Of a stretch of DNA of 64,000 nucleotides, positions 7,280-22,574 are shown piece by piece. The notes below the pieces were generated by a model that was not told the origin of the DNA, did not search any database, and saw only the letters and a program-made list of their open reading frames with translations. This DNA comes from Mycolicibacterium mucogenicum DSM 44124. Lineage in GTDB: Bacteria > Actinomycetota > Actinomycetes > Mycobacteriales > Mycobacteriaceae. Location: positions 3,596,001 through 3,660,000 of the forward strand of contig NZ_CP062008.1 of NCBI RefSeq assembly GCF_005670685.2. The letters are read 5' to 3'. The number at the start of each line of letters is the position of its first letter. Position 1 is the stretch's first letter. The position numbers and the translations under genes are program-made.

Positions 7280-8731
7280 GCCGGAGATACCGCGGGCGAC
7301 CAGCTTCGTCTCCAGATACTCCTCGAAACCGGCCACGCCCATCTCCCGGCCGATCCCCGACTGCTTGTAGCCGCCGAAGGGTGCGTCGGGTGAGTACCAG
7401 ACGCCGCCGTTGACGTTGATGGTCCCGGTCCGCAGCCGGGACGCCACCCAGTCGACGCGAGCCTGATCGGTGCCGACGACCGCGCCGGACAATCCGTACG
7501 GCGAGTCGTTGGCGATGCGGACCGCGTCGGCGTCACCGTCGTGGGCGATCACGGTGAGCACAGGCCCGAAGATCTCCTCGCGCGCCACGCGGGCATCGTT
7601 GGTGAGTCCGGCGATGACGGTCGGCTCGATGAAGAAGCCTTGGGCCCGGTCCGCCGGCCGCCCGCCGCCGCAGGCAAACCGGCCACCCTCCTCCAGCGCC
7701 AGCCGAAGGTAGCCCTCGACGCGGTCGCGCTGGCGCGCGGAGATCAATGGGCCGCACAGGGTCTTCGGGTCGGTGGGGTCGCCGAAACCGATGCTGGACA
7801 TGGCCGTTGCGGCCGCGGCGACGGCCTCGTCGCACCGTGCGCGGGGCACCAGCAGCCGGGTGGTGAAGGCGCAGCCCTGCCCGGCGTGCATCGCGACACC
7901 GGCGGCCGCGGCGGTGCAGGCCGCGGGTAGGTCGGCGTCGTCGAGCACGATGTACGCGGATTTGCCGCCCAGTTCCAGGAACACCTTCTTGATGGTGTGC
8001 GAGGCTGCCACCATGACGGCCCGGCCGGTGGCCGTCGAGCCGGTGAACGACACCAGGTCCACCCGGGGGTCCTCGGTCAACTGCGCGCCGAGCGCATGAT
8101 CGGCCGAAGTGACGACGTTGACCACGCCCGCGGGAAAGTCGGTGCGCTCGTTGATGATCCGGCCGACCTCGGCAGCACACCACGGGGTGTCCGGCGCGGC
8201 CTTGAGCACGACGGTGTTGCCGGCCGCCAACGCCGGGCCCAGCTTGGCGAAGTTGATCTGATGCGGGAAGTTCCACGGCGTGACAGCGCCGACGACACCG
8301 CAAGGCTCGCGGACGACGGTGCGCCGAGTCGGTTTACCGAACGGCGCAGCCTCTCCGAGATCGGTTGTCCACGTGTAGTTTTCAGCGAGATCGGCGACGT
8401 AGCCCAGGCCATCGACCGGTGCCTGCAGGTGCCCGCCGTAGGTCAGTGAGACCGGCGCGCCCACCTCGGCCACGGTGATGGCGCGCAGGTGCTCGATCTC
8501 GTCGCCCAGCGCGTCGCGCAACTGCCGCAGGCAGTGCACCCGTAGCGCGGTGTCGCGCGACCAGTCGGTGTCGTCGAAGGCGGTGCGGGCCGCCGCGATG
8601 GCCCGATCCATGTCGTCGGCGTCAGCGTCGGCGGCGTACCCTAACGTCTCCTCGGTGGCCGGGTTGATTGTCGCGAACTCGCCGCCGCGCCCGGGCACCA
8701 GCTGCCCGTCGATCAGCAGGGCGGTGCTCAC
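7271..8731 (-). CDS. NAD(P)-dependent aldehyde dehydrogenase
   Basis: A 486-aa class 3-type soluble aldehyde dehydrogenase oxidising an aldehyde to its acid. The catalytic cysteine is C287 (GQGCAFTT) and the general base E253 (LELGGKS). N154 (PWNF) and the cofactor lysine K177 are present. Length is normal. The GTG start overlaps the monooxygenase stop by 4 nt, so the pair is co-translated. A monooxygenase ester product, once hydrolysed, would give an alcohol that the nearby alcohol dehydrogenase and this enzyme could oxidise; that pathway is inference. The substrate cannot be read from the sequence. Confidence 0.93.
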   Translation of the reverse strand: MSTALLIDGQLVPGRGGEFATINPATEETLGYAADADADDMDRAIAAARTAFDDTDWSRDTALRVHCLRQLRDALGDEIEHLRAITVAEVGAPVSLTYGGHLQAPVDGLGYVADLAENYTWTTDLGEAAPFGKPTRRTVVREPCGVVGAVTPWNFPHQINFAKLGPALAAGNTVVLKAAPDTPWCAAEVGRIINERTDFPAGVVNVVTSADHALGAQLTEDPRVDLVSFTGSTATGRAVMVAASHTIKKVFLELGGKSAYIVLDDADLPAACTAAAAGVAMHAGQGCAFTTRLLVPRARCDEAVAAAATAMSSIGFGDPTDPKTLCGPLISARQRDRVEGYLRLALEEGGRFACGGGRPADRAQGFFIEPTVIAGLTNDARVAREEIFGPVLTVIAHDGDADAVRIANDSPYGLSGAVVGTDQARVDWVASRLRTGTINVNGGVWYSPDAPFGGYKQSGIGREMGVAGFEEYLETKLVARGISGTR

Positions 8732-10506
8732 GTGATGACCAGCCCCTCAAGGGTTTCCGCATCCCGCCAGGCTGCGAGGATGTCGGCGTATTCGGTGGGG
8801 CTGCCGAAGAAGAAGCTGTCCTGGTTCAGCCGGTCGCTGGGCTGCCCTTCGCGGTTGTAGTAGCCGGGCGTGCAGGCTTCGCGCCGGCCGGAGATCACCA
8901 CGGAACGCGCCACCACATCGCGGACCCAGCCGTCCTCGGCGGCCGCGCTCGCCTCCAATTTGGTGATGTCATTCTTGAGCGCCCACGCGATCACCCACGC
9001 GGTGTGCCGCGACTGCGTGTCGATCAGGTACGGGAAGTTCACCGTGAATCCGGACTGCGCGATGCTCGCGATGAAGCAGTTCGGAAAACCGTTGACATGC
9101 AAACCATGTAGCGTGCGCACCCCATCGGACCACTTCTCGGTCAACGTCTTTCCGTCACGGCCGATCACCTCGAACCCGGTGCGCCGCGTGTAGTCGGTGC
9201 CAACCTCGAAGCCCGTCGCGAAGATCAGGCAGTCAAGCGGGTATTCGGTGCCGTCGACCACGACGCCGGCCGCGCTGATCTGCTCGACACCCCGGCCCCG
9301 GGTGTCGACCAGGGTGACGTTATCGCGGTTGAACGTCTGCAGATACTCGTCATGGAAACAGGGCCGCTTGCAGTAGTAGCCGTACCAGGGCTTGAGCCCT
9401 TCGGCGGTGGCCGGGTCGGTCACCAGCGCGTCGATGCGCGCCCGGATCTGCTCCATCTTGGCGAAGTCCGCCAACTCCGCCGTCGACGCCTGCGGATCGG
9501 TGCCCTCTTTGGCAATCGGCATGGCCTTGGCCAGGCTGGTCCAGGCGTCGGCCACCAAATCCTCGTCGGCCTGGCCGCCGGCGGTGAGGATCTGGAAATT
9601 CTCGATGCGGCGCTGCTGCCAACCGGGTTCCAGCGCCGCGGCCCAGTCCGGGTCGGTGGGCGCGTTGGCCCGCACGTCGACCGTCGACGGCGTCCGCTGG
9701 AATACGAACAGCTCCCCGACGGCCGGCGCCAGGCGCGGCACGCACTGGATCGACGTAGCGCCCGTGCCGATGATGCCGACGCGCTTGTCGGCCAGGTTTT
9801 CCAGGCCCGCGCCGGTATAGGCGTAGTCCCAGCGGCTGGTGTGGAACGCGTGGCCTGCGAACTCGGTGATGCCCTCGATCCCGGGCAGTTTGGGCTTCTG
9901 CAGGTAGCCGTTGGCCATCGAGACGAACTGGGCACGAATGGCGTCGCCGTGGTTGGTGGCGATCACCCACCGCGAATCGGCTGCGTCCCAACGGATTTCC
10001 CGCACCTCGGTCTGCAGGCACGCGTTGCGGTACAGGTCGTAGTGCTCGGCGATGGCCTGGCAGTGCGCGAAAATCTCGGCGCCCTTGGCGTACTTCTCGG
10101 TCGGCACATAACCCAGTTCTTCCAGCAGCGGCATGTACACGTACGACTCGACGTCACAGGCGATGCCGGGATAGCGGTTCCAGTACCAGGTGCCGCCCAC
10201 GTCGGCGGCCTTGTCGATCAGCCGGATGTCCGCCACGCCCAGTTCCCGCAGCCGGGCACCGGTGAGCAACCCGCCGAAACCGGCGCCGATGATCGCGACG
10301 TCGACCTCGTCGGTCAGCGGCGCACGGGTGAAACCCGGCTCGGCCCAAGGGTCTTCACCGAAGGTCGCGAACCGGCCGGCGATCTCCACGTACTGGCCGA
10401 TGCCGTCGGAACGCAGCCGACGGGCGCGCTCCTCGGCGTACCGCTGCCGCAGCGCGTCAGGGTCGAACGTCGTGCCGTCGCTGCCCGAGCTCCCGCCATG
10501 CGTCAT
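8728..10506 (-). CDS. Flavin-binding Baeyer-Villiger monooxygenase
   Basis: A 592-aa type I Baeyer-Villiger monooxygenase: FAD plus NADPH, ketone to ester or lactone. The first Rossmann motif GAGFGG is near residue 45. The fingerprint FxGxxxHxxxW(D/P) appears as FAGHAFHTSRWDY, and the second Rossmann motif is GTGATSIQ. Size matches the longer cyclic-ketone or steroid-type enzymes. ATG 10506 is preferred over GTG 10524, because the latter would put the operator-like TGGAACACGTTTCA partly inside the coding region. No strong Shine-Dalgarno sequence precedes either start. It heads a two-gene unit with the aldehyde dehydrogenase. Confidence 0.9.
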   Translation of the reverse strand: MTHGGSSGSDGTTFDPDALRQRYAEERARRLRSDGIGQYVEIAGRFATFGEDPWAEPGFTRAPLTDEVDVAIIGAGFGGLLTGARLRELGVADIRLIDKAADVGGTWYWNRYPGIACDVESYVYMPLLEELGYVPTEKYAKGAEIFAHCQAIAEHYDLYRNACLQTEVREIRWDAADSRWVIATNHGDAIRAQFVSMANGYLQKPKLPGIEGITEFAGHAFHTSRWDYAYTGAGLENLADKRVGIIGTGATSIQCVPRLAPAVGELFVFQRTPSTVDVRANAPTDPDWAAALEPGWQQRRIENFQILTAGGQADEDLVADAWTSLAKAMPIAKEGTDPQASTAELADFAKMEQIRARIDALVTDPATAEGLKPWYGYYCKRPCFHDEYLQTFNRDNVTLVDTRGRGVEQISAAGVVVDGTEYPLDCLIFATGFEVGTDYTRRTGFEVIGRDGKTLTEKWSDGVRTLHGLHVNGFPNCFIASIAQSGFTVNFPYLIDTQSRHTAWVIAWALKNDITKLEASAAAEDGWVRDVVARSVVISGRREACTPGYYNREGQPSDRLNQDSFFFGSPTEYADILAAWRDAETLEGLVIT

Positions 10507-10516
10507 CGATGCATAT

Positions 10517-10530
10517 TGGAACACGTTTCA
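10517..10530. promoter_or_regulatory. KstR-like operator TGGAACACGTTTCA
   Basis: This 14-mer fits the published KstR (cholesterol regulon) consensus TnnAACnnGTTnnA at every fixed position. It is a near-palindrome 11 bp upstream of the monooxygenase ATG. Other TetR-type repressors bind similar sites, so the regulator is not certain. Confidence 0.5.
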
Positions 10531-10572
10531 GTTTCTGGCAAGGGCCTTTCGCGCTGCGACAGCGGCCTGCGG

Positions 10573-11316
10573 TCAGTGCGCGGCCAGCCAGTCCTGCAGA
10601 CGGGTGGTGGCGATGGTGGCGTCGGCACCGGTGACCAGACCCGTGTCGCCGACCTTCGTGCCGAAGTAGACGGCCGCCGGGTCGGTCACGATCGGCAGCG
10701 TGCTGCCGCTGTGGGCCTGGGCCAGCTCGGCCAGCCGCGCGAAGGTCATCTTCTCCGGCCCGCCGATATTGGTGATCCCGTCGATCGGCGCGGCCTGCGC
10801 CGCGCGGGCAACTTCGGCTGCGACATCCTTGCCGGCCATCGGCTGGATGAGGCCTTCCGGCGCGCGCACGACGCCGTCGACGGTCAGTGAGGCCGTGATC
10901 GCCTCGGCGAATTCGTGGAACTGCGTGGCCCGAACGATGGTGTAGTGCAACCCCGATCCGGTGATGATGCGCTCCTGAGCGACCTTGGCCCGCATGTACC
11001 CACTGTCCGGCAGACCGTCGCAGCCCACGATGGACAACGCAACGTAGTGGCCGACGCCCGCGTCCTTGGCTGCGGTCGTCAGGTTCGTCGCCGATTTGGT
11101 GAAGAAGTCGAGCACCGGCCCGTCGGAGAAGTCGGGCGAGTTGACGACGTCGACGAGTACATCGGCGCCGGCCAGTGCGTCGGCAAGGCCCGCGCCGGTG
11201 AGGACATCAGCGCCGGACTCACGGGAGGCGGCAACGGTGTCGTGGCCCGCGGCACCCAGGAGCGCGACGACCTTGGAGCCGATCTGGCCGCTGGCCCCTA
11301 TCACAGTGATCTTCAT
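10573..11316 (-). CDS. NmrA-like NAD(P)-binding reductase, copy 1
   Basis: A 247-aa atypical SDR of the NmrA/SDR_a5 type, related to quinone oxidoreductases and NADPH sensors. The nucleotide motif GASGQIG is at residues 8-14; the classical YxxxK pair is replaced by SGYMRAKVAQE. It is about 85% identical by eye to copy 2 at 15113-15856, so one arose by recent duplication. It lies 73 bp downstream of the cupin gene on the same strand and has no regulatory element of its own, so it is probably transcribed from the cupin promoter. Catalytic activity against quinones is inferred only from family resemblance. Confidence 0.85.
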   Translation of the reverse strand: MKITVIGASGQIGSKVVALLGAAGHDTVAASRESGADVLTGAGLADALAGADVLVDVVNSPDFSDGPVLDFFTKSATNLTTAAKDAGVGHYVALSIVGCDGLPDSGYMRAKVAQERIITGSGLHYTIVRATQFHEFAEAITASLTVDGVVRAPEGLIQPMAGKDVAAEVARAAQAAPIDGITNIGGPEKMTFARLAELAQAHSGSTLPIVTDPAAVYFGTKVGDTGLVTGADATIATTRLQDWLAAH

Positions 11317-11389
11317 GAGTCATGCCTTTCATCGTTGATTTCTGTTGTGCTACAGCAGCTCTGGCCGCTGAGCGGCGGTTCGTCGGCCG

Positions 11390-11791
11390 TCAGCGGACCC
11401 GGCGATCCTTGCGGGCTTCGAGTTCGTCGTCGTCGACGACCACGAGCATCGGCACGTCCGGGTTGCAGACCATCGTGACGAGGTACCGCACCGGGATGTC
11501 CGAGCGGTTGTTGCCGTCGGAATAGTGGATGACGTCGCCCCCGGGCTCCCAGAACGCCTCCCCCGCCCTGACCACGCGCGGGGCCTCGCCTTCGAGCTCG
11601 AAGAGCATCTCCCCGTCCAGCACATAGCCGAACGCCGGTCCGCCCGGGTGACGGTGCGGTGGCGCTCCGGCCCCTCCGGGCGGCCACTCGATGATCACCG
11701 TCATCACGTGCGCACCGGCCGGAATGAACGGCGGCGTGACGGTCTGGATGGTCGTGATGGCGTTGGCTATGTCGTCCGATGTGGCGAACAT
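11390..11791 (-). CDS. Cupin-domain protein
   Basis: A 133-aa single-domain cupin. Motif 1 is PPHRHPGGPAFGYVLDGEM, with two His that can hold a metal; motif 2 is WEPGGDVIHYSDGNN. Such small cupins may be sensors, isomerases or dioxygenases, and no substrate is apparent. AGTTGAGGAG precedes the ATG. Element A of the shared regulatory motif lies upstream, with CTGA ending exactly 36 nt before the start. An internally deleted copy of this gene survives at 16609-16710 and shares the C-terminal DDDE-EAR-DRRVR signature. Confidence 0.85.
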   Translation of the reverse strand: MFATSDDIANAITTIQTVTPPFIPAGAHVMTVIIEWPPGGAGAPPHRHPGGPAFGYVLDGEMLFELEGEAPRVVRAGEAFWEPGGDVIHYSDGNNRSDIPVRYLVTMVCNPDVPMLVVVDDDELEARKDRRVR

Positions 11792-11827
11792 GCTTGCTCC
11801 TCAACTGAATTCGGCGGGATCGGTGGA

Positions 11828-11877
11828 TTCAGACTCTCAGCTGTGCAGGGCGATGGGACCCTTGGAAGCCCGTAGTC
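11828..11877 (-). promoter_or_regulatory. Regulon element A (upstream of cupin)
   Basis: Minus-strand GACTACG, GGC, TTCCAAGGGTCC, 21 bases, GTCTGAA; the start codon follows after 36 nt. It lies between the nitroreductase stop and the cupin start. One of six such elements (A-F), probably a promoter or activator site for the island's sigma factor or LuxR-type regulator. Confidence 0.75.
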
Positions 11878-11883
11878 GGTGGG

Positions 11884-12564
11884 TCAGGGCCGGGCGCCCT
11901 GGTCCCCGATGAATGTGACGGTTTCGCCGAGCGGGGCCCGGCCGGTCCGCACGTATTCGACGGCGGCGTCCTCGTAACCGATCGACATGCCGCAGAACAG
12001 CATCAGTTCGCTCGGCGGCGACAGGACCTCGGCGACGGTGTTGTGTACCTGCGACCAGGCCATCTGCGGGCAGCTGTGCAGCCCCTCGGCGCGCAACAGC
12101 AGCATGACGCTCTGCAGATACATCCCGAGGTCGGCCCACTGGGCCACGCCCAGATCCCGGTCGATGTAGCAGAACAGGGCGGCCGGTGCGCCGAAACAGT
12201 CCCAGTTGGCGATCGCGGCCCGCTGACGCGCCTCCCAGTCCTCCCGTGCGATGCCGAGTGCGCTGTAACGCTCGTTGCCGAACGCCTCGCGGCGGTCGCG
12301 GTACGGCGACTTCATCGCCGGCGGGTACATCACGTATTCCCGGTCGTCCCAAAGGACTCCGTCGGCTACCCGCCCCACCGCGCGCTTCTTCAGTTCGGCC
12401 AGTGGCGAGCCCGTCACGACGTAGATGTTCCACGGCTGGATGTTCGAGCCAGACGGTGCCCACGCAGCCGCAGTCAGCACGCGCTCGATCACGTCTCTGG
12501 GTACTTCTTTGTCGATGAAACCACGCACCGAGCGCCTGGTGGTCACTGCCTCGTAGACGTCCAC
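11884..12564 (-). CDS. Nitroreductase-family flavoprotein, copy 1
   Basis: A 226-aa FMN-dependent nitroreductase-fold protein. The N-terminal TTRRSVRGF phosphate-binding segment and APSGSNIQPWNIYVVTG are the classic FMN contacts; LGMYLQSVMLLLRAEGL is the dimer helix. Members reduce nitroaromatics, quinones or enones with NAD(P)H. The GTG start is supported because element B's CTGA ends exactly 36 nt upstream, as in three sister genes. A paralogue is at 15953-16612, but the two are only distantly similar, so this pair is older than the NmrA duplication. Confidence 0.87.
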   Translation of the reverse strand: MDVYEAVTTRRSVRGFIDKEVPRDVIERVLTAAAWAPSGSNIQPWNIYVVTGSPLAELKKRAVGRVADGVLWDDREYVMYPPAMKSPYRDRREAFGNERYSALGIAREDWEARQRAAIANWDCFGAPAALFCYIDRDLGVAQWADLGMYLQSVMLLLRAEGLHSCPQMAWSQVHNTVAEVLSPPSELMLFCGMSIGYEDAAVEYVRTGRAPLGETVTFIGDQGARP

Positions 12565-12600
12565 GGTGAACCTGCTTTCCGGTCCGCTTCAACGGTCCAC

Positions 12601-12650
12601 TTCAGCCTGCAGGCTGTGGCCCGCCCGCGGACCCTTGGAAATTCGTGGTC
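12601..12650 (-). promoter_or_regulatory. Regulon element B (upstream of nitroreductase 1)
   Basis: Minus-strand GACCACG, AAT, TTCCAAGGGTCC, 21 bases, GGCTGAA, then 36 nt to the GTG. Nearly the whole element lies inside the last codons of the sigma factor gene and encodes its TTNFQGS tail. Confidence 0.75.
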
Positions 12651-13219
12651 ACCGGCCGGCACGCCGAATCCTGTTGACGGTCCAGGTGCGACAGCGCGGT
12701 ACGCAGTTGCCGCCGCCCCCGCGAAACCCGCGACATCACCGTGCCCATCGGGACACCCATGAGCGCGGCCGTCTCGGCGTAGGTATAACCCTGAATCCCG
12801 ACGTAGAAGACCGCCGTCCGGGCGCCGTCGGTCAGCTCCGACAGCGCGGCCACGACGTCGTCGTCGGGCATCACGTCCAGCACCTCGACCTCGGCCGAAC
12901 GATGGACAGCCGACCGCTCATGGCCACTCGCGGTGAACATCTCGAGTGCCACCTCGGCGGGACGGCACTGCCGGTACCGGTGTCTGCTGACCCAGCGGTT
13001 GTGCAGAATCCGGAAGAGCCACGCGTTGAGGTTCGTGCCCGGCCGAAACGACCCGAAGCCCTCGAAGGCGTGTAACAGCGTGTCCTGCAAGAGATCTTCG
13101 GCGTCGGCGTCGGAGTCCGTCAGCCGTCGGGCGCCGCGTCCGAGCGCATCGAACAACGGGACGGCCTCGACGACGAACCGGGCGGCGAGTTCGGAATCCG
13201 GTGCCGGCGCTGCCGTCAC
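12602..13219 (-). CDS. ECF RNA polymerase sigma factor
   Basis: A 205-aa sigma-70 of the ECF class with region 2 (about 20-90; DAEDLLQDTLLHAFEGFGSF, NLNAWLFRILHNRW) and region 4 (about 120-180; AALSELTDGARTAVFYVGIQGYTYAETAALMGVPMGTVMSRVSRGRRQL). It resembles the RpoE/SigH-like ECF groups. No anti-sigma gene or extra C-terminal sensor domain is adjacent, which is unusual. Element C of the shared motif lies upstream, so it probably drives its own transcription; two-thirds of the island carries the same element. Its last 15 or so residues are encoded over element B and probably have no sigma function. Confidence 0.92.
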   Translation of the reverse strand: MTAAPAPDSELAARFVVEAVPLFDALGRGARRLTDSDADAEDLLQDTLLHAFEGFGSFRPGTNLNAWLFRILHNRWVSRHRYRQCRPAEVALEMFTASGHERSAVHRSAEVEVLDVMPDDDVVAALSELTDGARTAVFYVGIQGYTYAETAALMGVPMGTVMSRVSRGRRQLRTALSHLDRQQDSACRPVTTNFQGSAGGPQPAG

Positions 13220-13265
13220 GTTCGAGGCCTCCCTGTTTCAACCAGTGACGGTGAAATCCGCCGAA

Positions 13266-13315
13266 CTCAGACTCGTCGAGCGGCGGCCGCGGCGAACCTT
13301 TGAAAGTACGTAGTC
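13266..13315 (-). promoter_or_regulatory. Regulon element C (upstream of the ECF sigma gene)
   Basis: Minus-strand GACTACG, TAC, TTTCAAAGGTTC, 21 bases, GTCTGAG; 46 nt follow before the GTG start. The 12-mer departs from the majority form at three positions. It indicates autoregulation if the sigma factor reads these elements. Confidence 0.7.
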
Positions 13316-13426
13316 CGTTGCCCCAATCCGTGGTGCGTGCCGGCACGGATGACTTCGCGGGGTGGCTCGCGTTCAACCCCGCGCAGGGTGAATTCCCTGC
13401 CGAACGATGCAGCCAAAGGAGACAAC

Positions 13427-14341
13427 GTGAGCTTGGACAACATTTCCCACCTCGGGCAGACGGGGCTCGACGAGTTGGTTCCGTCGCGCTACGCCGTGCA
13501 GGTGGGCGACATCGAAGTACTGGTCATCAGCGACGGTGTACTGCCGATCACCGCATCGACATTGGCCACCACCACCCCGCCGGCCGACCTGGCGGAGTGG
13601 CTGAACGACAACTTCCTGCCGCCGGAGATCGTCGACTGGCCGCTGAACGTCGTCGTGGTGCGCAGCGGTGATCAGACGATCCTGGTCGACGCCGGGCTGG
13701 GGCTCGAGTTCCCGGACTTCCCGCGCGCCGGCCAGACGATCCAGCGCCTGGAGGCCGCGGGCGTCGATCTCGATTCGGTGACCGACGTCGTGCTGACCCA
13801 CATGCACATGGACCACGTCGGCGGGCTGATCACCGAAGGACTCAAAGACCGGCTGCGTGCCGATCTGCGCGTCCACGCCTCGACCGCCGAGGCCGAGTTC
13901 TGGGAGGCGCCCGATTTCTCCCGCACGGTCATGCCGCAGCCCATTCCGGACGTGCTGAAGCGGGTCGCCACCCAGTTCCTGAACGAATACCGCGGCCAAT
14001 TGCGGACTTTCGAGACGGACTACGAGGTGGCGCCGGGCGTGCTCATCTCCCGCACCGGCGGGCACACTCCCGGCCACAGCGTGGTGCGGCTGGAGTCCCG
14101 CGGCGAGAAGCTGATGTTCGCGGGCGATGCGGTGTTCGCTCCCGGTTTCGACAACCCCGAGTGGCAGAACGGTTTCGAGCACGATCCCGCGGAGGCGGCC
14201 CGCGTCCGCGTCGGCCTGCTGCGGGAGGTAGCGGCGACTGGATCGGCTCTGGTGGCGACGCACCTGCCGTTCCCCTCGGTGTGCCACGTGGCGGCCGCGG
14301 GCGACACCTTCCGGTGCGTTCCCGCAACCTGGGATTACTGA
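13427..14341 (+). CDS. Metallo-beta-lactamase-fold hydrolase, copy 1
   Basis: A 304-aa MBL-fold enzyme with the zinc motif THMHMDHVGG (HxHxDH), a later metal His in GGHTPGHS, and Asp in FAGDAVF. The fold and length suit a lactonase or quorum-quenching-type hydrolase, not an antibiotic-degrading lactamase. GTG 13427 is chosen over upstream starts because AAAGGAG lies 6 nt before it. It is about 60% identical by eye to the copy at 16755-17681 and ends in the same PFPSVCHV...FRCVPA tail. It is the only plus-strand gene in the motif cluster, and a clean copy of the shared element is not seen before it. Confidence 0.87.
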   Translation: MSLDNISHLGQTGLDELVPSRYAVQVGDIEVLVISDGVLPITASTLATTTPPADLAEWLNDNFLPPEIVDWPLNVVVVRSGDQTILVDAGLGLEFPDFPRAGQTIQRLEAAGVDLDSVTDVVLTHMHMDHVGGLITEGLKDRLRADLRVHASTAEAEFWEAPDFSRTVMPQPIPDVLKRVATQFLNEYRGQLRTFETDYEVAPGVLISRTGGHTPGHSVVRLESRGEKLMFAGDAVFAPGFDNPEWQNGFEHDPAEAARVRVGLLREVAATGSALVATHLPFPSVCHVAAAGDTFRCVPATWDY

Positions 14342-14351
14342 CCGCTGACCA

Positions 14352-14392
14352 CGAAAACGGCCCCCGGACATGTTGTCCGGGGGCCGTTTTCG
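14352..14392. terminator. Bidirectional hairpin terminator
   Basis: Perfect 19-bp stem (CGAAAACGGCCCCCGGACA at 14352-14370 and its complement at 14374-14392) with a TGT loop and A/T runs on both sides. It separates the convergent hydrolase (+) and SDR (-) genes. Confidence 0.9.
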
Positions 14393-14396
14393 GCGA

Positions 14397-15116
14397 TCAC
14401 GCCGCCGCGCCGCCGCCGTCGGCGTGCAGGGTCGAGCCGGTGATGAAACTCGACCGTGGCGACGCGAGGAACAGCACCGCCTGCGCGATCTCGGCCGGCT
14501 GCGCCGTCCGGCCCAGTGGCAGTGCGCGACCCAGCTCGTCGTTGGTGTCACCCCACTCGGCAACGACGCCCGGGGTCGCCGTCGGTCCCGGCGCGACGCT
14601 GTTGACGCGCACTCCTTGCGGCCCGAATTCCGTTGCCCACGTGCGGGTCAACGATTCCAATGCCGCCTTGGAGGCGCTGTAGCTGGACGCCCCGGGAACG
14701 CCTTTGAACGCAACCATGGACGTGACGTTGACGATGCTCCCGCGTCCGCGGCGGAGCATGCCCGGTACCAGTGCTGCCACCAGGAAGTAGGCGCCGCGCA
14801 CGTTGGTGTCGAACGTCGACTCGAACGACGCGACGTCCTGCTCCACGGTGAGCGCGCCCGGGAAGCTGGCGGCGTTGTTGACGACGATGTCGACATCACC
14901 ACATTGGCGGGCAAGGCTTTTCACCGATTCCAGATCCGCCAGGTCGGCGGCGATGAATCGCACCCCGAGTTCGGCGGCCGCCGCGGCGCCGCGATCTGCG
15001 GAGCGTCCGGTGATGTTCACCGCGGCGCCTTCGGCAGCCAAAAGACGCGCGGTCTCGTATCCGATTCCGGCTGTCCCGCCCGTCACCAGCGCGGTCAGGC
15101 CCGTCAGCTCCGTCAC
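14397..15116 (-). CDS. Classical short-chain dehydrogenase/reductase
   Basis: A 239-aa SDR with the cofactor motif TGGTAGIG at 13-20, NNAAS, the catalytic Ser and YSASK (Tyr-x-x-x-Lys), and the C-terminal ITGSTLHADGG. Normal length for 3-oxoacyl reductase-like SDRs; the substrate is unknown. The GTG start overlaps the stop of NmrA copy 2 by 4 nt (GTGA), so it is the second gene of a unit transcribed from element D. Confidence 0.92.
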   Translation of the reverse strand: MTELTGLTALVTGGTAGIGYETARLLAAEGAAVNITGRSADRGAAAAAELGVRFIAADLADLESVKSLARQCGDVDIVVNNAASFPGALTVEQDVASFESTFDTNVRGAYFLVAALVPGMLRRGRGSIVNVTSMVAFKGVPGASSYSASKAALESLTRTWATEFGPQGVRVNSVAPGPTATPGVVAEWGDTNDELGRALPLGRTAQPAEIAQAVLFLASPRSSFITGSTLHADGGGAAA

Positions 15117-15856
15117 TGGGTGGCCAGCCAGTCGGCCAGGTGCAGGTCCGAGATGATCGCGTCGCCACTGGTGACCAGGCCGGTGTCGCCGACCTTGGTG
15201 CCGAAGTAGACGGCTGCCGGGTCGACCACGATCGGCAGACTCTCATGGCGGTGCGCCAGCGCCAGTTTCGCCAGGCCGGCGAACGTCAACTTGTCCGGCC
15301 CGCCGATGTTCACGATGCCGTCGACCGGCGCGGCCTGCGCGACACGAGCCACTTCGGCCGCGACATCGGCGCCGGCGATCGGCTGGATGAGGCCCTCGGG
15401 CACCCGCACCTGACCGTCCACCGTCAGCGATGCGGTGATCGCTTCGGCGAACTCGTGAAACTGAGTGGCCCGCACGATGGTGTACGGCAGTCCCGACGCC
15501 GTGATGATGCGTTCCTGGGCAACCTTGGCGCGCATGTAGCCGCTGTCGGGCAGCCTGTCGCAGCCCACGATCGACAGTGCCACGTAGTGGCCTACTCCGG
15601 CGGCCCTCGCCGCGGCCACGAGGTTGGTTGCCGACCGGGTGAAGAAGTCCAGCACGGGCCCGTCGGCGAAGTCCGGCGAGTTGACGACGTCGACGAGCGC
15701 GTCGGAGCCCGCGAGCGCCTCGGTCAGGCCCGCGCCGGTGAGGACATCGGCGCCCGAGTCCCGCGACGCCGCCACGGTCTGGTGACCGGCCTCGTTCAGC
15801 AGCGCGACGACCTTCGAACCGATCTGGCCACTGGCACCCATGACAGTGATCTTCAT
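15113..15856 (-). CDS. NmrA-like NAD(P)-binding reductase, copy 2
   Basis: A 247-aa near-duplicate of the protein at 10573-11316, with the same GASGQIG motif, length and ends (GTKVGDTGLVT...DWLA). ATG 15856 is preferred over GTG 15865: GAAAGGGTGG lies before it, and element D's TTGA box then ends exactly 36 nt upstream, as in three sister genes. Unlike copy 1 it has its own regulatory element and leads an operon with the SDR. The role is probably reduction of quinone-like electrophiles, by inference. Confidence 0.85.
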   Translation of the reverse strand: MKITVMGASGQIGSKVVALLNEAGHQTVAASRDSGADVLTGAGLTEALAGSDALVDVVNSPDFADGPVLDFFTRSATNLVAAARAAGVGHYVALSIVGCDRLPDSGYMRAKVAQERIITASGLPYTIVRATQFHEFAEAITASLTVDGQVRVPEGLIQPIAGADVAAEVARVAQAAPVDGIVNIGGPDKLTFAGLAKLALAHRHESLPIVVDPAAVYFGTKVGDTGLVTSGDAIISDLHLADWLATQ

Positions 15857-15892
15857 CAGACCCACCCTTTCGAATTGTTTCGGTTGTGCAGC

Positions 15893-15943
15893 TTCAACAC
15901 TGGTCGTCGACGAACGCGGGTGAACCCCGGAAAGTCCGTGGTC
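15893..15943 (-). promoter_or_regulatory. Regulon element D (upstream of NmrA copy 2)
   Basis: Minus-strand GACCACG, GAC, TTTCCGGGGTTC, 22 bases, TTGAA, then 36 nt to the ATG. The most divergent of the six, and the only one with a spacer one base longer. Confidence 0.68.
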
Positions 15944-15952
15944 CGCCGACCG

Positions 15953-16612
15953 TCAGTCGAGGAACACCACGTTGTCGCTGATCGGATTGCGCGGCGTATC
16001 AAGGTGATTCGCCGGAAAATCCGGGTCCGGGTAGCCGATCGAGATTCCACACAGGATCGTGAGATCCTCGGGAATATCGAGCTGCGCACGCAACACCTCG
16101 GGGTAGAAACTGATCGACACCTGTACACAACTTCCGAGCCCCCGCTCGGTCAATGCCAGCATCAGCGTCTGCAGGAACATCCCGACACCCATCGCGTCGA
16201 CTGCGCCGAAATCGCGGTGCATGCACACCACCCCGGCGACGGGGGCACGGAAGAACTCCCAGTTGCGCCGCTGCGCCGCCCAACGCCCGGCCGCATCGCT
16301 GCGGTCGATGCCCATCGCTCCGTACACCAGGGCACCGCTCTCGCGGCGCAGATGCGCGAACCGGGGCGGCAGGCCGGCCGAGCCCACCTCGGGCGGAGTC
16401 GTATCGACAACCGCGAGCAGCGCGTCGACCAACCGCGCGCGCCGCTCCCCGGTGACGAAGTAGACGTGCCACGGCTGGGTATTTGAGTTCGACGGCGCCC
16501 GGATCGCCAGCTCCAGCGCCTCATCCAGCAGTTCCCGCGGAACCGGCTTGTCCGGCAAGAACATCCGTGACGAACGGCGCGACCGGACGATATCGCCGAA
16601 CCCGATCGTCAT
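15953..16612 (-). CDS. Nitroreductase-family flavoprotein, copy 2
   Basis: A 219-aa FMN nitroreductase-fold protein: RSRRSSRMFLPDKPVPRELL at the N-terminus, APSNSNTQPWHVYFVTG for FMN, and GVGMFLQTLMLALTERGLGSC for the dimer helix. It belongs to the same family as copy 1 but is clearly divergent. Its ATG overlaps the stop of the deleted cupin ORF (ATGA), so that remnant still couples its translation. It is probably read from element E through the MBL copy 2 gene. Confidence 0.87.
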   Translation of the reverse strand: MTIGFGDIVRSRRSSRMFLPDKPVPRELLDEALELAIRAPSNSNTQPWHVYFVTGERRARLVDALLAVVDTTPPEVGSAGLPPRFAHLRRESGALVYGAMGIDRSDAAGRWAAQRRNWEFFRAPVAGVVCMHRDFGAVDAMGVGMFLQTLMLALTERGLGSCVQVSISFYPEVLRAQLDIPEDLTILCGISIGYPDPDFPANHLDTPRNPISDNVVFLD

Positions 16613-16710
16613 CGGACTCGCCGGTCCTCACGGGCCTCGAATTCGTCGTCATCGGCGGCCATGAGCATCGGCAGACCAGGCGTACAGATCAGGTCGGCGC
16701 TGTCGAACAT
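16609..16710 (-). pseudogene. Internally deleted cupin copy, 33-aa remnant ORF
   Basis: An intact 33-codon ORF. It starts MFDSAD, like the cupin's MFATSDD, and then jumps to CTPGLPMLMAADDDEFEAREDRRVR, matching the cupin's last 26 residues (CNPDVPMLVVVDDDELEARKDRRVR). About 100 residues, including both cupin metal motifs, are missing without a frameshift. The upstream GAATTCA and GAGGAG before the ATG also resemble those before the intact cupin. The stop overlaps the nitroreductase 2 start, so it may survive as a leader peptide or simply as a scar. No cupin activity is possible. Confidence 0.8.
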
Positions 16711-16754
16711 GGTTACTCCTCTGTTGAATTCAGTGATCCACGAGGCCCACCGGT

Positions 16755-17681
16755 TCAAGATTCCCACACGGCCGGCACGCACCGGAATGCGTTGCCCGCA
16801 GGTGCCACATGGCAGACCGAAGGGAACGGCAGGTGCGTCGCGACGAGCGCCTCGCGGGTCGATGACAGCTCCTGCAGCAGCCCGACGCGCACGCGCGCCG
16901 CCTCCTCGGGGTCGTGTTCGAAGCCGTTGAACCAGTCCGGGTGGTCGAATCCCGCCTGCAGCACGGCGTCACCGGCGAACGTCAGGCGGTCGCCGCCGGA
17001 GGCCAGCCGGACCACACTGTGCCCCGGGGTGTGTCCGCCGGTGCGACGGACCAGCACCCCCGGCGCGACTTCGTACTCGTTCTCGAATGGCCGCAACACG
17101 TTGCGGTACTCGGTCAGAAACCTTGTGGCGGAAGACCGCATTGCATCCTGCATGGCGTCGTTCACCGTGGTGCGGGAAAAGTCCGGTGACTCCCAGAACT
17201 CTGCCTCGGCGGCAGCGGCGTGGATTCGCACGTCCGGGCGCAGCCGGTCCTTCACCCCTTCGACGAGCAGGCCGCCGACGTGATCGAAGTGCATGTGCGT
17301 GAGGACCACGTCGGTCACGGTCGCGAGGTCGATGCCGGCGGCCTCGAGGCGTTCGCCCCAATGTCCGGCCCGTGGCGTGAAGTCCTGGTAGTCGACGCCG
17401 ACTCCGGCGTCGATGAGGATGGTCTGTTCTCCGCGACGGACGACAACCTGATTCAGCGGCAACGCGAGACTGTCGGATGGCAGGAACATGTCGTCCAGCC
17501 AGGCCGCCCGGATTTCAGGGTCGGCGTTGGTCGCCAAGCTCGGAGCCGACATCGGCAGCACGCCGTCGCTGATCACCACGACGTCGATGTCCCCGACCGG
17601 AAGCGCGTAGTACGACGGCACCGGTTGGTCGGGTCCCCGGCCATCGGCTGGTGCGGTGGATTCCACTGTCTCAAGCGTCAT
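16755..17681 (-). CDS. Metallo-beta-lactamase-fold hydrolase, copy 2
   Basis: A 308-aa paralogue of the hydrolase at 13427-14341. The zinc motif is THMHFDHVGG, followed by GGHTPGHS and FAGDAVL. An N-terminal extension of about 20 residues is not shared with copy 1. ATG 17681 lies 53 nt after the CTGA of element E, longer than in most sister genes. It leads a probable operon with the deleted cupin and nitroreductase 2 (44 nt gap). A lactonase-type function is inferred only from the fold. Confidence 0.87.
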   Translation of the reverse strand: MTLETVESTAPADGRGPDQPVPSYYALPVGDIDVVVISDGVLPMSAPSLATNADPEIRAAWLDDMFLPSDSLALPLNQVVVRRGEQTILIDAGVGVDYQDFTPRAGHWGERLEAAGIDLATVTDVVLTHMHFDHVGGLLVEGVKDRLRPDVRIHAAAAEAEFWESPDFSRTTVNDAMQDAMRSSATRFLTEYRNVLRPFENEYEVAPGVLVRRTGGHTPGHSVVRLASGGDRLTFAGDAVLQAGFDHPDWFNGFEHDPEEAARVRVGLLQELSSTREALVATHLPFPSVCHVAPAGNAFRCVPAVWES

Positions 17682-17734
17682 TTCGTATCCCTATCGGCGG
17701 TCCAGCACTGGGGCGGATGCCCCCGGCTGCGGTA

Positions 17735-17784
17735 TTCAGCGTCGTCGCGATGCAGCCTGATCGGACCCTTGGAACCCCGTAGTC
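17735..17784 (-). promoter_or_regulatory. Regulon element E (upstream of MBL copy 2)
   Basis: Minus-strand GACTACG, GGG, TTCCAAGGGTCC, 21 bases, CGCTGAA; 53 nt to the ATG. It lies almost entirely within the 3' end of the ThuA-like gene, where it encodes STTGFQGSD. Confidence 0.75.
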
Positions 17785-18626
17785 GAGACCGGGTGGAGCC
17801 ACCCGGCGATATTGGCGACGTAGTCCTTGAAGACCGTCAGCCGCGCGGGGTCGTTCATGATCTGTGTGCCGGGGACATCGGACACGAACGACGGTGCTCC
17901 GGCGCCGAGATCCCAGTTGTAGTCGGCAAAATGGTGGAACGTGGACTCGGCGACCACGCGGCCCATCGGCCGGCCGTCGGGACATCGCTCACCGTCGACC
18001 ACGACGGCGAGATTGAAGTGCCGGCCGGTCGCGGTACTACGGCCCCTCGCGATTGCCTGGGCGAGCGGACCTTTCGCGGTCACCATGCCTTCATGCGGAT
18101 GCGCGGGGAACCATTCGATGTGCCCGCTCGCGGTGCGGTTGGTACGTAGCAGCTCGTGCGGCTCGCCGTCGACCAGCACCGGCTGGTAGTCGCCATTGGC
18201 GCCCGAGTGGTAGTTGGGCCACGAGATGTTCGGGTTGTCCTGATCGTCTCGCAGATCGGTGGCGTCGCGGGTGTCGTCGTGGAATTCGTTGACCACGCCG
18301 AGAATTCCGAGGCGGTTCAGGCAGCAGCCCAGGTCTTGGTGATCGCGCGCGGTGAGCACACCGCCGCTGCGCTCGCGGAACCGCCGGATGCCGTCGGCGT
18401 CGGCCGCCGTCAGTCCGTCGCCGACGTCGACCGCGAGTAGCCACAACTGGTCGAAATCGAACTCGTCCAGACGGCTCAGCACCGGGTCGTCGGTCAGGCA
18501 TGCCCGATTGCGTGCGGTCACGTGGTGACCGCACGCTCTCAACTCGTCTGCCACCATCGAAAACCGGCTGACGTCCCAATCGTCGGCGCATTCGGTGATC
18601 GTCGTCTGTAACAGGATGCGGGACAC
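17736..18626 (-). CDS. ThuA/class I glutamine amidotransferase-like protein
   Basis: A 296-aa protein with a flavodoxin-like GATase1/ThuA-type fold: an N-terminal beta strand (RILLQTTI), FDQLWLLAVDVGDGLTAADADGIRRF, then GGVLTARDHQDLGCCLNRLG. A cysteine pair lies at the nucleophile-elbow position, but no clear Cys-His-Glu triad was found. Relatives are mostly annotated as hypothetical or sugar-utilisation ThuA proteins, so no activity is assigned. GTG 18626 is supported by the 36-nt spacing to element F. Its C-terminal tail is encoded over element E. Confidence 0.6.
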   Translation of the reverse strand: MSRILLQTTITECADDWDVSRFSMVADELRACGHHVTARNRACLTDDPVLSRLDEFDFDQLWLLAVDVGDGLTAADADGIRRFRERSGGVLTARDHQDLGCCLNRLGILGVVNEFHDDTRDATDLRDDQDNPNISWPNYHSGANGDYQPVLVDGEPHELLRTNRTASGHIEWFPAHPHEGMVTAKGPLAQAIARGRSTATGRHFNLAVVVDGERCPDGRPMGRVVAESTFHHFADYNWDLGAGAPSFVSDVPGTQIMNDPARLTVFKDYVANIAGWLHPVSTTGFQGSDQAASRRR

Positions 18627-18662
18627 GGGACTCTTTCACTTCAAGGGTTTACGCGGAATGTG

Positions 18663-18712
18663 ATCAGCATGGCCGCTCCCCGACCGCGGCGGACCCTTGG
18701 AAGTACGTGGTT
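18663..18712 (-). promoter_or_regulatory. Regulon element F (upstream of the ThuA-like gene)
   Basis: Minus-strand AACCACG, TAC, TTCCAAGGGTCC, 21 bases, TGCTGAT, then 36 nt to the GTG. It lies in the 98-bp gap after the LuxR-type regulator gene. Confidence 0.73.
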
Positions 18713-18724
18713 CGGTGGCGCAGT

Positions 18725-21514
18725 TCAGCGCGCGGGGAACAGCGTGCGCAGCTGCCGCCGCGAGGTGATGCCGAGCTTGACGAAGACTTTTCGTAGGTGC
18801 CATTCGACGGTGTGGGTGCTGATGAACAGCTGGGCACCGATCTCCTGGTTGGTCAGACCGCCGGCGGCCAGTTCGGCGATCTGGGCCTCTTGCGTCGTCA
18901 GCTCGTCACCGGAACTGACCGGCTCCTTGCGGACCTTCTTGCCGGCGGCGATCAGCTCGCGGCGCGTGCGCTCTGCGAACGCCTCTGCCCCCATCCGGTT
19001 GAGCATCTCGAACGCCGCCGCGAGATGCTCCCGCGCCGCCACGCGGCGGTTCATGCGGCGCAGCCATTCCCCGTAACACAGCCGGGCCCGGGCCTGCAGG
19101 AAGATAACCCCGGTGCGCCCGAGCCGTTCGATGGCCTCGGTGTACAGGGCGTCGGCGTCCTCGTCGTCGGCCACCAGGGCGCGCGCGTGGGCGAGCGCTC
19201 CCAGTCCCCAATCGGTGCCGCTGGCGCCCGCGCGCGCGGCCAGCCGCTGCACTGCCCACTCCGCGGTTTGCTTGTCGCCGATGCGCGTTGCGGCTTCGGC
19301 GAGCTCGATCAGACCCCAGCTGTAGAAGCCGAGATCGTCATAGTCGCAACAGTTCCTGGCCGCCGCGAACGCTTCGGCATAACGCCCGAGTCCGTTGTAG
19401 ACGACCGCCGAAAGAAACCCAGTGACCCCGAGTACCCGGCCTTCGCCGCGGGCCGCCGCATCGGCCGCCGCGGACTCGATGAGGCCGACCGCATCGGTGG
19501 CAACCCCACGAAACGCCGCCAACGACAGCGAGTGGTACCGCAACGGGGCATAGTCGGTCGCCGCCGAGATGACGGCAGCCTCAGCGATAAGTGCTGCCGC
19601 CGTGTCGAATTCGCCTGCCAGGAGATGCACACCGGCCCCGAAGGCGAGTGCGGGCGGAAGCGCGGCCAAGGCACCGGCGTCACGCGCCTGACGAATCACG
19701 GCGGTGGCCAGCAGTCGGTGGATGCCGTCATCCCAAATCTCGCCGACGGCCGATTCCTGAACGATGGCCAGTCCCAACGGCATCCACCGCAGGAGCTGGC
19801 CGTCGGCGTCCTGCGCGTGCCGGCACATGAGCTCCAGCGCGGCGCGCATCTGTTCGGTACCGCCGCCGGTGACGATCCGGCTCGCCACCCCGCTCAGCAG
19901 CAAGTCCACCGGCCGTTGCAGCTCGGCCGCACTGCCGAGGGCAGCGCCCGCGGCCTCGGCCACCTGTAGCAGCATGTCCGGCCCACCCAGCCGGCCCGCA
20001 TACATCGCCGCGGCGAGCGCCTCGAGATATGTCTCGTGGGCAAGGTCGGCATCGAGCGTCTCGAGATCTCGTGCCGCGGCGAGCAACTTCTGCACGGCGT
20101 CGCTGAGCGGCGGCACGCCGGGCCCGCCGCCGCGGCTGCGGGCGAATTGCATCTCGGCCCGCAACCGATCCACTTGCGCCCGTTGCAGATTCGTCAGTGG
20201 CCCGAGTTCGGCGATCGCCAGGAGTTCATGCGCCGCAGCCGGTGCCGCCGCGTCGCGCTTGGCCTGTGCCGCCGCGAGCGCTCGTGCCGCGCGCAGGGCC
20301 GGGTCCGCGGTGAGAACCGTCGCGCGTTCCAGGAAGGCCGCTGCCGCGGCGACGCCGCCTTTGCTCTTGGCCCGGCCGGCGGAGCGCTCGAGATCCGCGG
20401 CGACAGCGTCGTCGGGCCCCGCCGCCGCGTGGGCGAAATGCCATGCGCGGCGGTCGGGATCCTGCCGGGGATCGGTGGCCTCGGCCAGAGCCCGATGGAC
20501 CGCTCGGCGCGCGTTCACGTCGGCCGCACGATAGACAGCCGAACGCATCAACGGATGGCCGAAACGCACCCGCGCGCCGAACTCGATGAGTCCGGCTGCC
20601 TCGGCCGGCGCCAGCGCACCGACGGACAGCCCCAAAGTCGTTGCGGCCCTCTGGAACAGCGCCGCGTCCCCAACCGAGTCGGCGGCGGCGAGGAACAACA
20701 GTTGCTGAGCAGCCGGTGGCAGCGCCTCGACGCGACGCCGGTAGCCGTCCTCGACCTGCCTCGTCACGCTGCGCCCGGTGCCCATGTTCCAGAAGCCACC
20801 GGCGAGCTCGGCGGCAGAAACACTGCGGGGGACCTCGAGGAGCGCCAGCGGGATCCCTCGCGTCTCGGCGACGACGCGGTCGCGCACCCGTTCGTCAACC
20901 CGCCCCAACAGCACCGAATCGAGCAGGTCGCGGGCGTCGGCATCGGACAGCCCCGTCACCGCCAGCTCCGGCAGCGTCCCCAGCGCCTCGGCTCCGGCGT
21001 CACGGGCCGCGAACAGCAGCACGACAGGCTCGGCGAGGAAGCGCCGAGCCACGAAAGCGAGGGTCTGCACCGACACCTGATCGAGCCACTGCGCGTCGTC
21101 GACCACACACAACAGCGGCTGATCCGCCGTTGCGGCGGCCAACAGGCTCAGCACCGCGAGCCCCACCAGGAAACGGTCCGGCGGCGCTCCGACGCCGCGG
21201 CCGAAGGCCACGTCCAATGCACCCCGCTGCGGCGTCGGCAACTCGTCGAGGTGATGCATCAGCGGTGCGCACAGCTGCTGCAGGCCCGCGTAGGCCAGCT
21301 CCATGTCGGACTCGACGCCCGTCACCTGGACACAGCGGAATCCGTCCGCGGCATTGACCGCATACCTCAGCAGCGCGGTCTTCCCGACCCCCGCCTCGCC
21401 CCGCAGGACCAGCACCTGACTGCTGCCCGACCGCGCGGCCGACAACAGGCCGCGCAGCGTCGTGATCTCGCTGTCGCGGCCACGCAAGACCGGCCCGCGA
21501 TCCTGGCTCGCCAT
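18725..21514 (-). CDS. Large ATP-binding LuxR-family (LAL) transcriptional regulator
   Basis: A 929-aa regulator. An N-terminal AAA/NACHT-like ATPase has Walker [12 protein letters not shown] (about residues 40-50) and a Walker B-like [12 protein letters not shown]; a long helical middle region follows. The C-terminal LuxR helix-turn-helix is [47 protein letters not shown] proteins bind a ligand and ATP and then activate nearby operons. It sits directly upstream of the motif-bearing genes on the same strand, making it a candidate reader of elements A-F besides the sigma factor. No copy of the element precedes its own gene. ATG 21514 is chosen; GTG 21523 is possible. Confidence 0.9.
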
Positions 21515-21559
21515 CGGCACCACCGTTCTGGTTGCTGTCAGCAGTCATGCCCAGACACA

Positions 21560-21593
21560 AAGGTGCCCCAAAACCGAAGTTTTGGGGCACCTT
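21560..21593 (-). terminator. Rho-independent-like terminator of etfBA
   Basis: A 15-bp perfect stem (AAGGTGCCCCAAAAC / GTTTTGGGGCACCTT) with a 4-nt CGAA loop, 24 nt downstream of the etfA stop and upstream of the LuxR-type gene. Confidence 0.88.
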
Positions 21594-21617
21594 CGCTTCT
21601 GCTCACGCAGAAAAAAA

Positions 21618-22574
21618 TCAGCCCTTACGAGCCTTGATGGCGTCGGTCAGCTGCGGTGCGACCTGGAACAGGTCACCCACGATGCCGAGGTCGGCGATCT
21701 CGAAGATCGGGGCCTCTTCGTCCTTGTTGACCGCAACGATGGTCTTGGACGTCTGCATGCCGGCGCGGTGCTGGATGGCGCCCGAGATGCCGAGGGCGAT
21801 GTACAGCTGCGGGGCAACGGTCTTACCGGTCTGGCCGACCTGGAACTGACCGCCGTAGTAGCCCGAGTCGACCGCGGCACGCGAAGCACCGACAGCACCG
21901 CCGAGCGAGTCGGCCAGGGCCTCGACGACCGCGAAGTTGTCGGCGCTGCCGACACCACGGCCACCGGCGACCACGACGCTGGCCTCGGTGAGCTCCGGAC
22001 GGTCACCGGCGACGGCCGGCTCGCGCGAGGTGATCTTGGTGGCGTTCTCGGCCTGGGCCGGAACCTCGACGTTGACGACCTCACCGGCGCCGTCGGCCGG
22101 GGCAGCCTCGACGGCACCCGGACGGACAGCGATCACCGGGAGCACGTCGTTGGCCTGCGCCTCGACGGTGTAAGCGCCACCGAAGATGCTGTGCACACCG
22201 ATGCCACCGGCCTTGACGTCGACGACGTCGACCAGCAGGCCGGCACCCAGGCGGGCCGCCAGACGACCGGCGACCTCTTTGCCCTCGGTGCTGGCGACCG
22301 TCAGAACGGCGGCCGGGGCCGCGGACTCGACGAGAGCCTCCAGCACGTCGACGGTCGGGGTGACCAGGAAGTTGGCCGCGTCGGCCGACTCCGCGACGTA
22401 GATCTTGGCCGCACCGGCGGCCTTGAGGGCGTCGGTCAGCGGCGCGGCGGTGCCGGGGGCACCCACCACAACTGCCGACGGCTCACCGAGCACACGGGCA
22501 GCGGTGATCAGTTCGGTGCTCACCTTCTTGAGGGCACCATCGGCGTGCTCGACGAGCACAAGTACTTCAGCCAT
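21618..22574 (-). CDS. etfA: Electron transfer flavoprotein alpha subunit (FixB)
   Basis: A 318-aa ETF alpha subunit. The N-terminal half is the ETF fold ([21 protein letters not shown]). The C-terminal FAD domain carries [44 protein letters not shown] and [22 protein letters not shown]. It passes electrons from acyl-CoA dehydrogenases to the quinone pool through ETF:quinone oxidoreductase. It follows etfB by 46 nt in the same operon and is ended by the hairpin at 21560-21593. The homologue is Rv3028c. Confidence 0.97.

Follow-up and report, generated by a model that had tools for sequence, protein, structure and literature searches.

Six promoter-like elements in a Mycolicibacterium mucogenicum gene cluster, one of them before an ECF sigma factor gene, as probable targets of the neighbouring LAL regulator

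The window, that is, the whole stretch of DNA analysed here, comprises 64,000 nucleotides of Mycolicibacterium mucogenicum DSM 44124 (contig NZ_CP062008.1, positions 3,596,001 to 3,660,000). It holds a minus-strand cluster in which the gene for a large ATP-binding LuxR-type (LAL) protein lies close to that of an extracytoplasmic function (ECF) sigma factor and to several enzyme genes, and in which a first-pass annotation had recognized six copies of a long promoter-like element. The genes discussed, with families assigned by Pfam where so marked, are the following (window positions).

11390..11791, minus strand: Cupin_2 protein (Pfam)
11884..12564, minus strand: nitroreductase 1 (Pfam)
12602..13219, minus strand: SigH-like ECF sigma factor, 205 aa, Pfam regions 2 and 4; proposed target, not reader, of the elements
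14397..15116, minus strand: short-chain dehydrogenase/reductase (SDR) oxidoreductase, downstream of NmrA copy 2 (Pfam)
15113..15865, minus strand: NmrA-like NAD(P)H-binding protein, copy 2 (Pfam)
16755..17681, minus strand: metallo-beta-lactamase-fold hydrolase (MBL), copy 2 (Pfam)
17736..18626, minus strand: conserved protein, previously labelled 'ThuA-like'; family not confirmed
18725..21523, minus strand: LAL regulator, 932 aa, AAA ATPase and C-terminal LuxR/GerE helix-turn-helix (HTH); proposed reader of the elements

All six minus-strand elements were confirmed, with their first bases at 11877, 12650, 13315, 15943, 17784 and 18712, and they precede the genes that had been named for them (cupin, nitroreductase 1, ECF sigma, NmrA copy 2, MBL copy 2 and 'ThuA-like'). 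Each is divided below into a 22-bp operator, a candidate -10 hexamer and a predicted transcription start.

Element 1, 11824..11877, minus strand: operator 11856-11877; -10 11831-11836 (GAGTCT); predicted start 11824; upstream of the cupin gene
Element 2, 12597..12650, minus strand: operator 12629-12650; -10 12604-12609 (CAGGCT); predicted start 12597; upstream of nitroreductase 1
Element 3, 13262..13315, minus strand: operator 13294-13315; -10 13269-13274 (GAGTCT); predicted start 13262; upstream of the ECF sigma gene
Element 4, 15890..15943, minus strand: operator 15922-15943; -10 15897-15902 (CAGTGT); predicted start 15890; upstream of NmrA copy 2 and SDR
Element 5, 17731..17784, minus strand: operator 17763-17784; -10 17738-17743 (GACGCT); predicted start 17731; upstream of MBL copy 2
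Element 6, 18659..18712, minus strand: operator 18691-18712 (AACCACG variant); -10 18666-18671 (CATGCT); predicted start 18659; upstream of the 'ThuA-like' gene

The operator reads GACYACG-N3-TTYCMRRGGTYC. As described before, the 12-mers are identical in four of the six elements, and a C at +16 and an A at +21 after the 12-mer are present in all six; the GACYACG start holds for the other copies but not for copy 6, which begins AACCACG. The reported spacer of 21 bases (once 22) between the 12-mer and CTGA or TTGA had to be corrected to 23 bases, and 24 in copy 4. When the first base of the element is taken as offset 0, an A at offset 42 and a T at offset 46 are invariant in the six elements, and the spacing change in copy 4 is only apparent because these two bases stay fixed. 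The CTGA/TTGA tetramer was considered as a -10 motif and rejected, since it is shifted in copy 4 while A42 and T46 keep their place. Counted from the element, the start codon lies 86, 86, 96, 78 or 87, 103 and 86 bp away for elements 1 to 6, respectively. In the window, the operator matches with at most one mismatch six times, always with A42 and T46, and each of 60 simulated first-order Markov windows contained none. The same six sites are the only matches at zero or one mismatch in the 6.1 Mb genome, which has seven more at two mismatches and, with up to three allowed, 71 sites versus 39 for the reversed control. A search for RNA elements returned no Rfam match at E<=1 (window positions 8000-22000), and a phage search with element 1 gave no match.

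The first-pass annotation had spoken of a local regulon. Six copies do stand together here, but the term is too narrow, the system being genus-wide. In a survey of 198 genomes of the genus, scanned with the element pattern at no more than one mismatch, 222 sites were found in 114 genomes, as against 28 sites in 24 genomes for the reversed pattern; enrichment upstream of orthologues in other genomes, on which the annotation had made its proposal depend, was thus observed. The sigma protein used as a query matched in 193 of the 198 genomes (E<=1e-30), mostly at about 50% identity, and most of these matches are presumably SigH itself; 30 loci were returned, the window's own included. A matrix built from the six window sites found a match of at least 18 bits in all 30 (lowest 18.4, in L065), mostly just upstream of the sigma gene and, in L048 and L053, before another gene. 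A further sigma search over genome contigs yielded 21 low-identity loci from unrelated phyla, which were not used. In total, 85 distinct sites were extracted at up to two mismatches, five of them the window's own and 39 from loci fetched for their sigma gene. The genes downstream encode sigma (38), NmrA (19), nitroreductase (13), MBL (4), cupin (2), 'ThuA-like' (2) and SDR (2) proteins, with five unassigned, and because they span several families we conclude that one promoter stands before unrelated genes.

The geometry seen in the window is kept in these sites. A-N3-T is present in 83 of the 85, at offset 42 in 74 and at offset 43 in 9, with no other offset exceeding 7; the two sites that lack it (L101 and L108) look like chance matches. 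Between the operator and the -10 the sequence is unconserved and low in information content, so that no separate -35 box is seen. Setting the T of the -10 at -7 places the predicted start at offset 53 and ANNNT at -11 to -7, the arrangement of mycobacterial sigma-A promoters, in the same 83 sites. The predicted start is supported by the start codons of long frames (at least 120 codons, 83 sites, one site being able to give several), which cluster there or at +27 to +39: 19 lie at -1, 0 or +1, 8 at +2 to +20 and 9 at -8 to -2, with a renewed rise at +27 to +39. Relative to this start the 22-mer spans -53 to -32 and is centred at -42.5. Class II operators of the LuxR/NarL/GerE type, such as the lux box, are centred at -42.5, and the operator would thus lie, with respect to a start predicted from sequence, where class II activators bind. 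In the promoter account consulted for M. smegmatis, ANNNT occurs at 79% of 6,090 promoters, 63% of those being TANNNT, TANNNT promoters give higher transcript levels than VANNNT promoters, 24% of transcripts are leaderless and no -35 consensus is described (PMC6448022).

The LAL protein has the three features of its family, namely a Walker A ATPase, a C-terminal LuxR/GerE HTH and about 900 residues: its N-terminus matches AAA_16 (E 3.4e-19), with GEAGVGKT at residue 42, and a GerE HTH occupies residues 874-925 (E 2.1e-14). Against the curated MalT model PRK04841 it scored 20 bits, below the cut-off of 537. The operator of element 6 lies directly past its stop codon. The sigma factor scored 166 bits against TIGR02947 (SigH), below the curated cut-off of 251.55, and matched SigH in the PDB with E 7.7e-48. 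No signature of a zinc-binding anti-sigma factor (HxxxCxxC) was found within 600 nt downstream of the sigma gene in 20 wide loci (L071-L090) or in L032, which carries a 45% plasmid homologue; in the window, nitroreductase 1 starts 37 bp past the sigma stop codon. No good element was found at the plasmid sigma homologues (L032-L034).

The element was present in 101 of the 105 genomes with a LAL (best E<1e-260) and in 13 of the 93 without (p 8e-36, uncorrected for relatedness). When any LAL at E<=1e-180 was counted, the figures were 106 of 119 and 8 of 79. Twenty site-centred loci of about 18 kb, taken from 19 genomes with poor sigma matches, contained no sigma homologue, and 16 of them held an intact LAL, the element and NmrA together. 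L129 has the same three, its site being missed by the regular expression and found by the genome pattern scan; the remaining ones are L128, with a broken LAL, L133 (G013), with no LAL, and L137, which holds a second site, upstream of an MBL gene, the LAL of that genome being in L136. Seventeen site-centred loci all have LAL and NmrA, and at least 16 have SDR (with the frames of four loci as queries); no DNA-binding protein family other than the LAL was seen to recur in them. In slow-grower-like genomes the order is fixB-LAL-element-NmrA-SDR, which is the window's chromosomal place. Of 20 sigma loci, 17 have a LAL within about 9 kb, and where operator and LAL are linked, 21-114 bp separate the operator centre and the LAL match. 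A tree built from 58 LALs places 45 operator-linked proteins in one clade of 46 (support 0.98), 38 of them within 600 bp of the operator and 7 elsewhere in the locus; of the 12 proteins outside this clade, one is operator-linked, and its cluster includes another LAL. Because most of its loci were chosen for a sigma gene or a site, the tree counts for less than the genome figures. Since LAL and element co-occur, and a LAL-element-NmrA-SDR unit exists without this sigma factor, these data indicate that the element tracks the LAL rather than the ECF sigma.

Next to paralogous LALs (50-52% identity; L161, L162 and L166) lie palindromic sites that read GACYACGG-N5-CCGTRGTC and have their A-N3-T at offset 42 or 43, and the operator form tracks the LAL clade. 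These palindromes suggest a site for a dimer, its left half preserved in the window copies and its right half preserved only partly. They lie at 4600-4692 and 12296 in L161, 6217 and 14313-14404 in L162, and 6110 and 14207-14298 in L166, within cupin-NmrA-SDR clusters, two of which include a nitroreductase; the perfect palindromes stand partly back-to-back, about 70 bp apart. A MalT-like direct repeat (CTACGG/CAAGGG, 11-bp spacing) was considered and dropped because the paralogous sites are palindromic.

Taken together, these results make it very likely that each element is an activator-dependent promoter bound by the neighbouring LAL, which would activate the linked genes and the ECF sigma gene. 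The earlier view that one DNA-reading system uses a shared promoter is thus supported, and the linkage of LAL and element favours the LAL, already suggested as a possible binder, for that role. The operator would consist of a left half, GACYACGG, five bases and a degenerate right half, CMAGGGTYC, to which the C-terminal LuxR-type domain of the LAL ATPase would bind as a dimer from -53 to -32; downstream of it there would be a weak -10 of the sigma-A type (VANNNT) and no -35 box. Once it senses a ligand, the LAL would activate the NmrA, SDR, nitroreductase, cupin, MBL and conserved protein genes, and perhaps also those of the Baeyer-Villiger monooxygenase (BVMO) and the aldehyde dehydrogenase (ALDH) through read-through, element 1 possibly being upstream of NmrA1-BVMO-ALDH as well, to judge by the common strand and short gaps. 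The ECF sigma gene would be activated likewise: because it carries the same promoter as the enzymes, it is best seen as one LAL target, apparently without an anti-sigma neighbour. With somewhat less than even confidence, we propose that the LAL, and not an anti-sigma factor, governs the ECF sigma, which would then relay the signal to a second gene set.

The first-pass annotation took the circuit to be autoregulated. In one rival reading the sigma factor itself would read the element, with a -35 in AAGGGTYC, a -10 in CGACGA/CGAGTC and GACYACG as an accessory site. A 15-bp spacing from AAGGGTYC to the CGACGA stretch would suit an ECF promoter, 38 of the 85 sites precede a sigma gene, though 39 come from sigma-fetched loci, and the element is found in 65 of 69 genomes with the sigma factor versus 49 of 129 without. 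Nevertheless, among LAL-positive genomes below the sigma cut-off (about 2e-51) the element is present in 38 of 38, 23 of which have a single SigH-like match, and the 20 site-centred loci without a sigma homologue point the same way; an element with the same -10 spacing adjoins the LAL in genomes that do not have this sigma. Moreover, SigH matches occur in 193 of 198 genomes, element-free ones included, and a conserved operator of 22 bp exceeds what sigma region 4 reads. Reading by the sigma factor is accordingly improbable, and the data do not support its autoregulation. We give no greater chance to another, unlinked regulator with the LAL as a passenger of the cluster, for which two genomes that keep a site without a linked LAL (G013 and G067) and three loci with none within about 9 kb (L082, L083 and L085) could be cited; the element's presence in 101 of 105 LAL genomes, the recurrence of LAL, NmrA and SDR in 17 sigma-poor loci and the agreement of operator form with LAL clade all speak for the LAL instead. 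That the similarity dates from the duplication of genes together with upstream sequence and has little regulatory meaning is hardly credible: NmrA1 and NmrA2 (82% identity) and MBL1 and MBL2 (66%) are indeed duplicates, as are the leader segments that carry the Rhodococcus plasmid sites described below, and duplication explains part of the repetition, but the six window elements precede six different gene families, and the spacers vary whereas the operator and the -10 stay constant; the same is true of other genomes.

Several observations weigh against the LAL as reader of the elements. T at -12 (TANNNT, preferred but not universal) is found in none of the 74 sites aligned at offset 42, unlike most sigma-A promoters; although not fully explained, this lack would suit a promoter that stays weak in the absence of the activator. 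The dyad, clear in the paralogous sites, is imperfect in the window, and the right half is asymmetric in the window's clade. The co-occurrence p-values are uncorrected for relatedness, and many loci were fetched for having a sigma gene or a site; the sigma cut-off is also imperfect, at least two of the 38 genomes (G018 and G197) having a 51% sigma adjoining the LAL, a diverged arrangement of the 51-60% class that escaped this cut-off. Thirteen genomes have the pattern without a strong LAL. Six of them (G026, G082, G123, G144, G147 and G182) hold chance matches without a -10; the LAL is at a contig end in G086, split over two contigs in G070 and in broken frames in G009 and G076; and in G142 the LAL is a paralogous one, accompanied by palindromes. 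Of the last two, G013 shows a good site in front of a cupin gene, although no LAL reached E<=1e-60; in G067 the site still lies between fixB and NmrA with no LAL there, the best LALs elsewhere in this genome are only 38% identical, and a second match is due to chance. Finally, L082, L083 and L085 have sites or sigma with no LAL within about 9 kb. Conversely, four genomes with both LAL and sigma that the pattern missed (G112, G153, G166 and G183) have sites just beyond its limit (L044, L169-L171). The site is retained where the LAL has gone from its usual place (L235, G067) or is broken (L128, G076), which makes these loci natural loss cases.

A related promoter is found on Rhodococcus plasmids that have LAL genes (56-57%), within a leader segment present in dispersed copies (L035 at 2848, 18469 and 31594; L036 at 5261, 18473 and 21969); one copy precedes a nitrilase-like gene and another an ECF sigma gene. 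Being duplicated leader segments, these sites are given little weight as independent support. A parallel LAL-to-ECF wiring may exist in L035, where the related promoter precedes a different ECF gene, one whose tail is weakly SnoaL-like. Across the family, 29 of 151 genomes matched at no more than one mismatch, same-genus genomes among them. Nine loci were read out of the 26 extra-genus sites listed; none contained homologues of the window genes, except for a 61-residue ALDH stretch in L226, and the extra-genus sites look like chance for this reason. Three of these loci, from genomes of another genus of the family (L219, L220 and L221), resemble one another and have a similar 22-mer with conserved flanks and without the -10 spacing, and no LAL was found within 1.5 kb of it. 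Across the class, the palindrome was found in 25 of 296 genomes, at one to three places each.

Regarding the other genes of the window, the 'ThuA-like' label could not be maintained, as no Pfam family was matched at E<=1e-3 (best weak match OST48_N, E 0.29). The BVMO resembles PtlE (800 bits, below the cut-off of 1100), and the ALDH is of the Rv0768 type, above the model cut-off. A fixB gene (etfA/fixB-type, 21618-22574) lies 94 bp ahead of the LAL gene on the same strand, and the LAL may be co-transcribed with electron-transfer flavoprotein genes; the fixB-LAL neighbourhood recurs in slow-grower-like loci. Operators 2 (12629-12650) and 5 (17763-17784) lie, on the minus strand, inside the final codons of the sigma and 'ThuA-like' open reading frames, respectively, and because they encode those ends both proteins finish in a TTxFQGS stretch. 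A 33-codon remnant of a second cupin gene (16608-16710, minus strand), with start and end kept and the middle missing, sits between MBL copy 2 and nitroreductase 2, its stop overlapping the start of the latter.

The proposed system resembles others in part. As in MalT/LAL promoters and that of TpdR from Rhodococcus jostii TMP1, the activator would be a large ATP-binding LuxR-type protein with a C-terminal HTH; the sites of such activators overlap the -35 region or sit just upstream of it, and MalT and TpdR are reported to use direct repeats (15-nt TnnAAnnGCGGAnTC for TpdR; PMC6099782), whereas the window site, which differs in sequence, is an imperfect dyad at a fixed distance from ANNNT. With LuxR/NarL/GerE class II operators it would share a dyad of about 20 bp centred near -42.5, here relative to a predicted start, and it differs in its degenerate right half and in the proposed reader, whose sensor is an ATPase and not a receiver or acyl-homoserine-lactone domain. 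PimR, the SARP-LAL regulator of Streptomyces natalensis, likewise activates the gene of a second regulator and has 22-nt binding boxes, although it binds heptameric direct repeats through its SARP domain and the second regulator is the PAS-LuxR protein PimM, which here would be an ECF sigma (PMC5930380). The window sigma is a SigH-like ECF protein; unlike mycobacterial SigH with its anti-sigma factor, it falls below the model cut-off, shows no anti-sigma signature in 20 related loci and has a LAL-type element on its gene.

No description of an operator for these LALs, or of this element or regulon, was found among the papers listed in the open-access literature searched. LAL activators and LuxR-type operators are already known; the LAL-to-ECF wiring is possibly new. 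The targets would point to a redox and detoxification regulon that detoxifies or catabolizes an electrophilic compound of lactone- or ketone-like character. LALs related to the one in the window occur in 119 of the 198 genomes of the genus (E<=1e-180), and for these widespread regulators the analysis supplies a specific 22-bp site, a predicted start and a list of targets, and suggests how an ECF sigma factor without an anti-sigma factor could be controlled.

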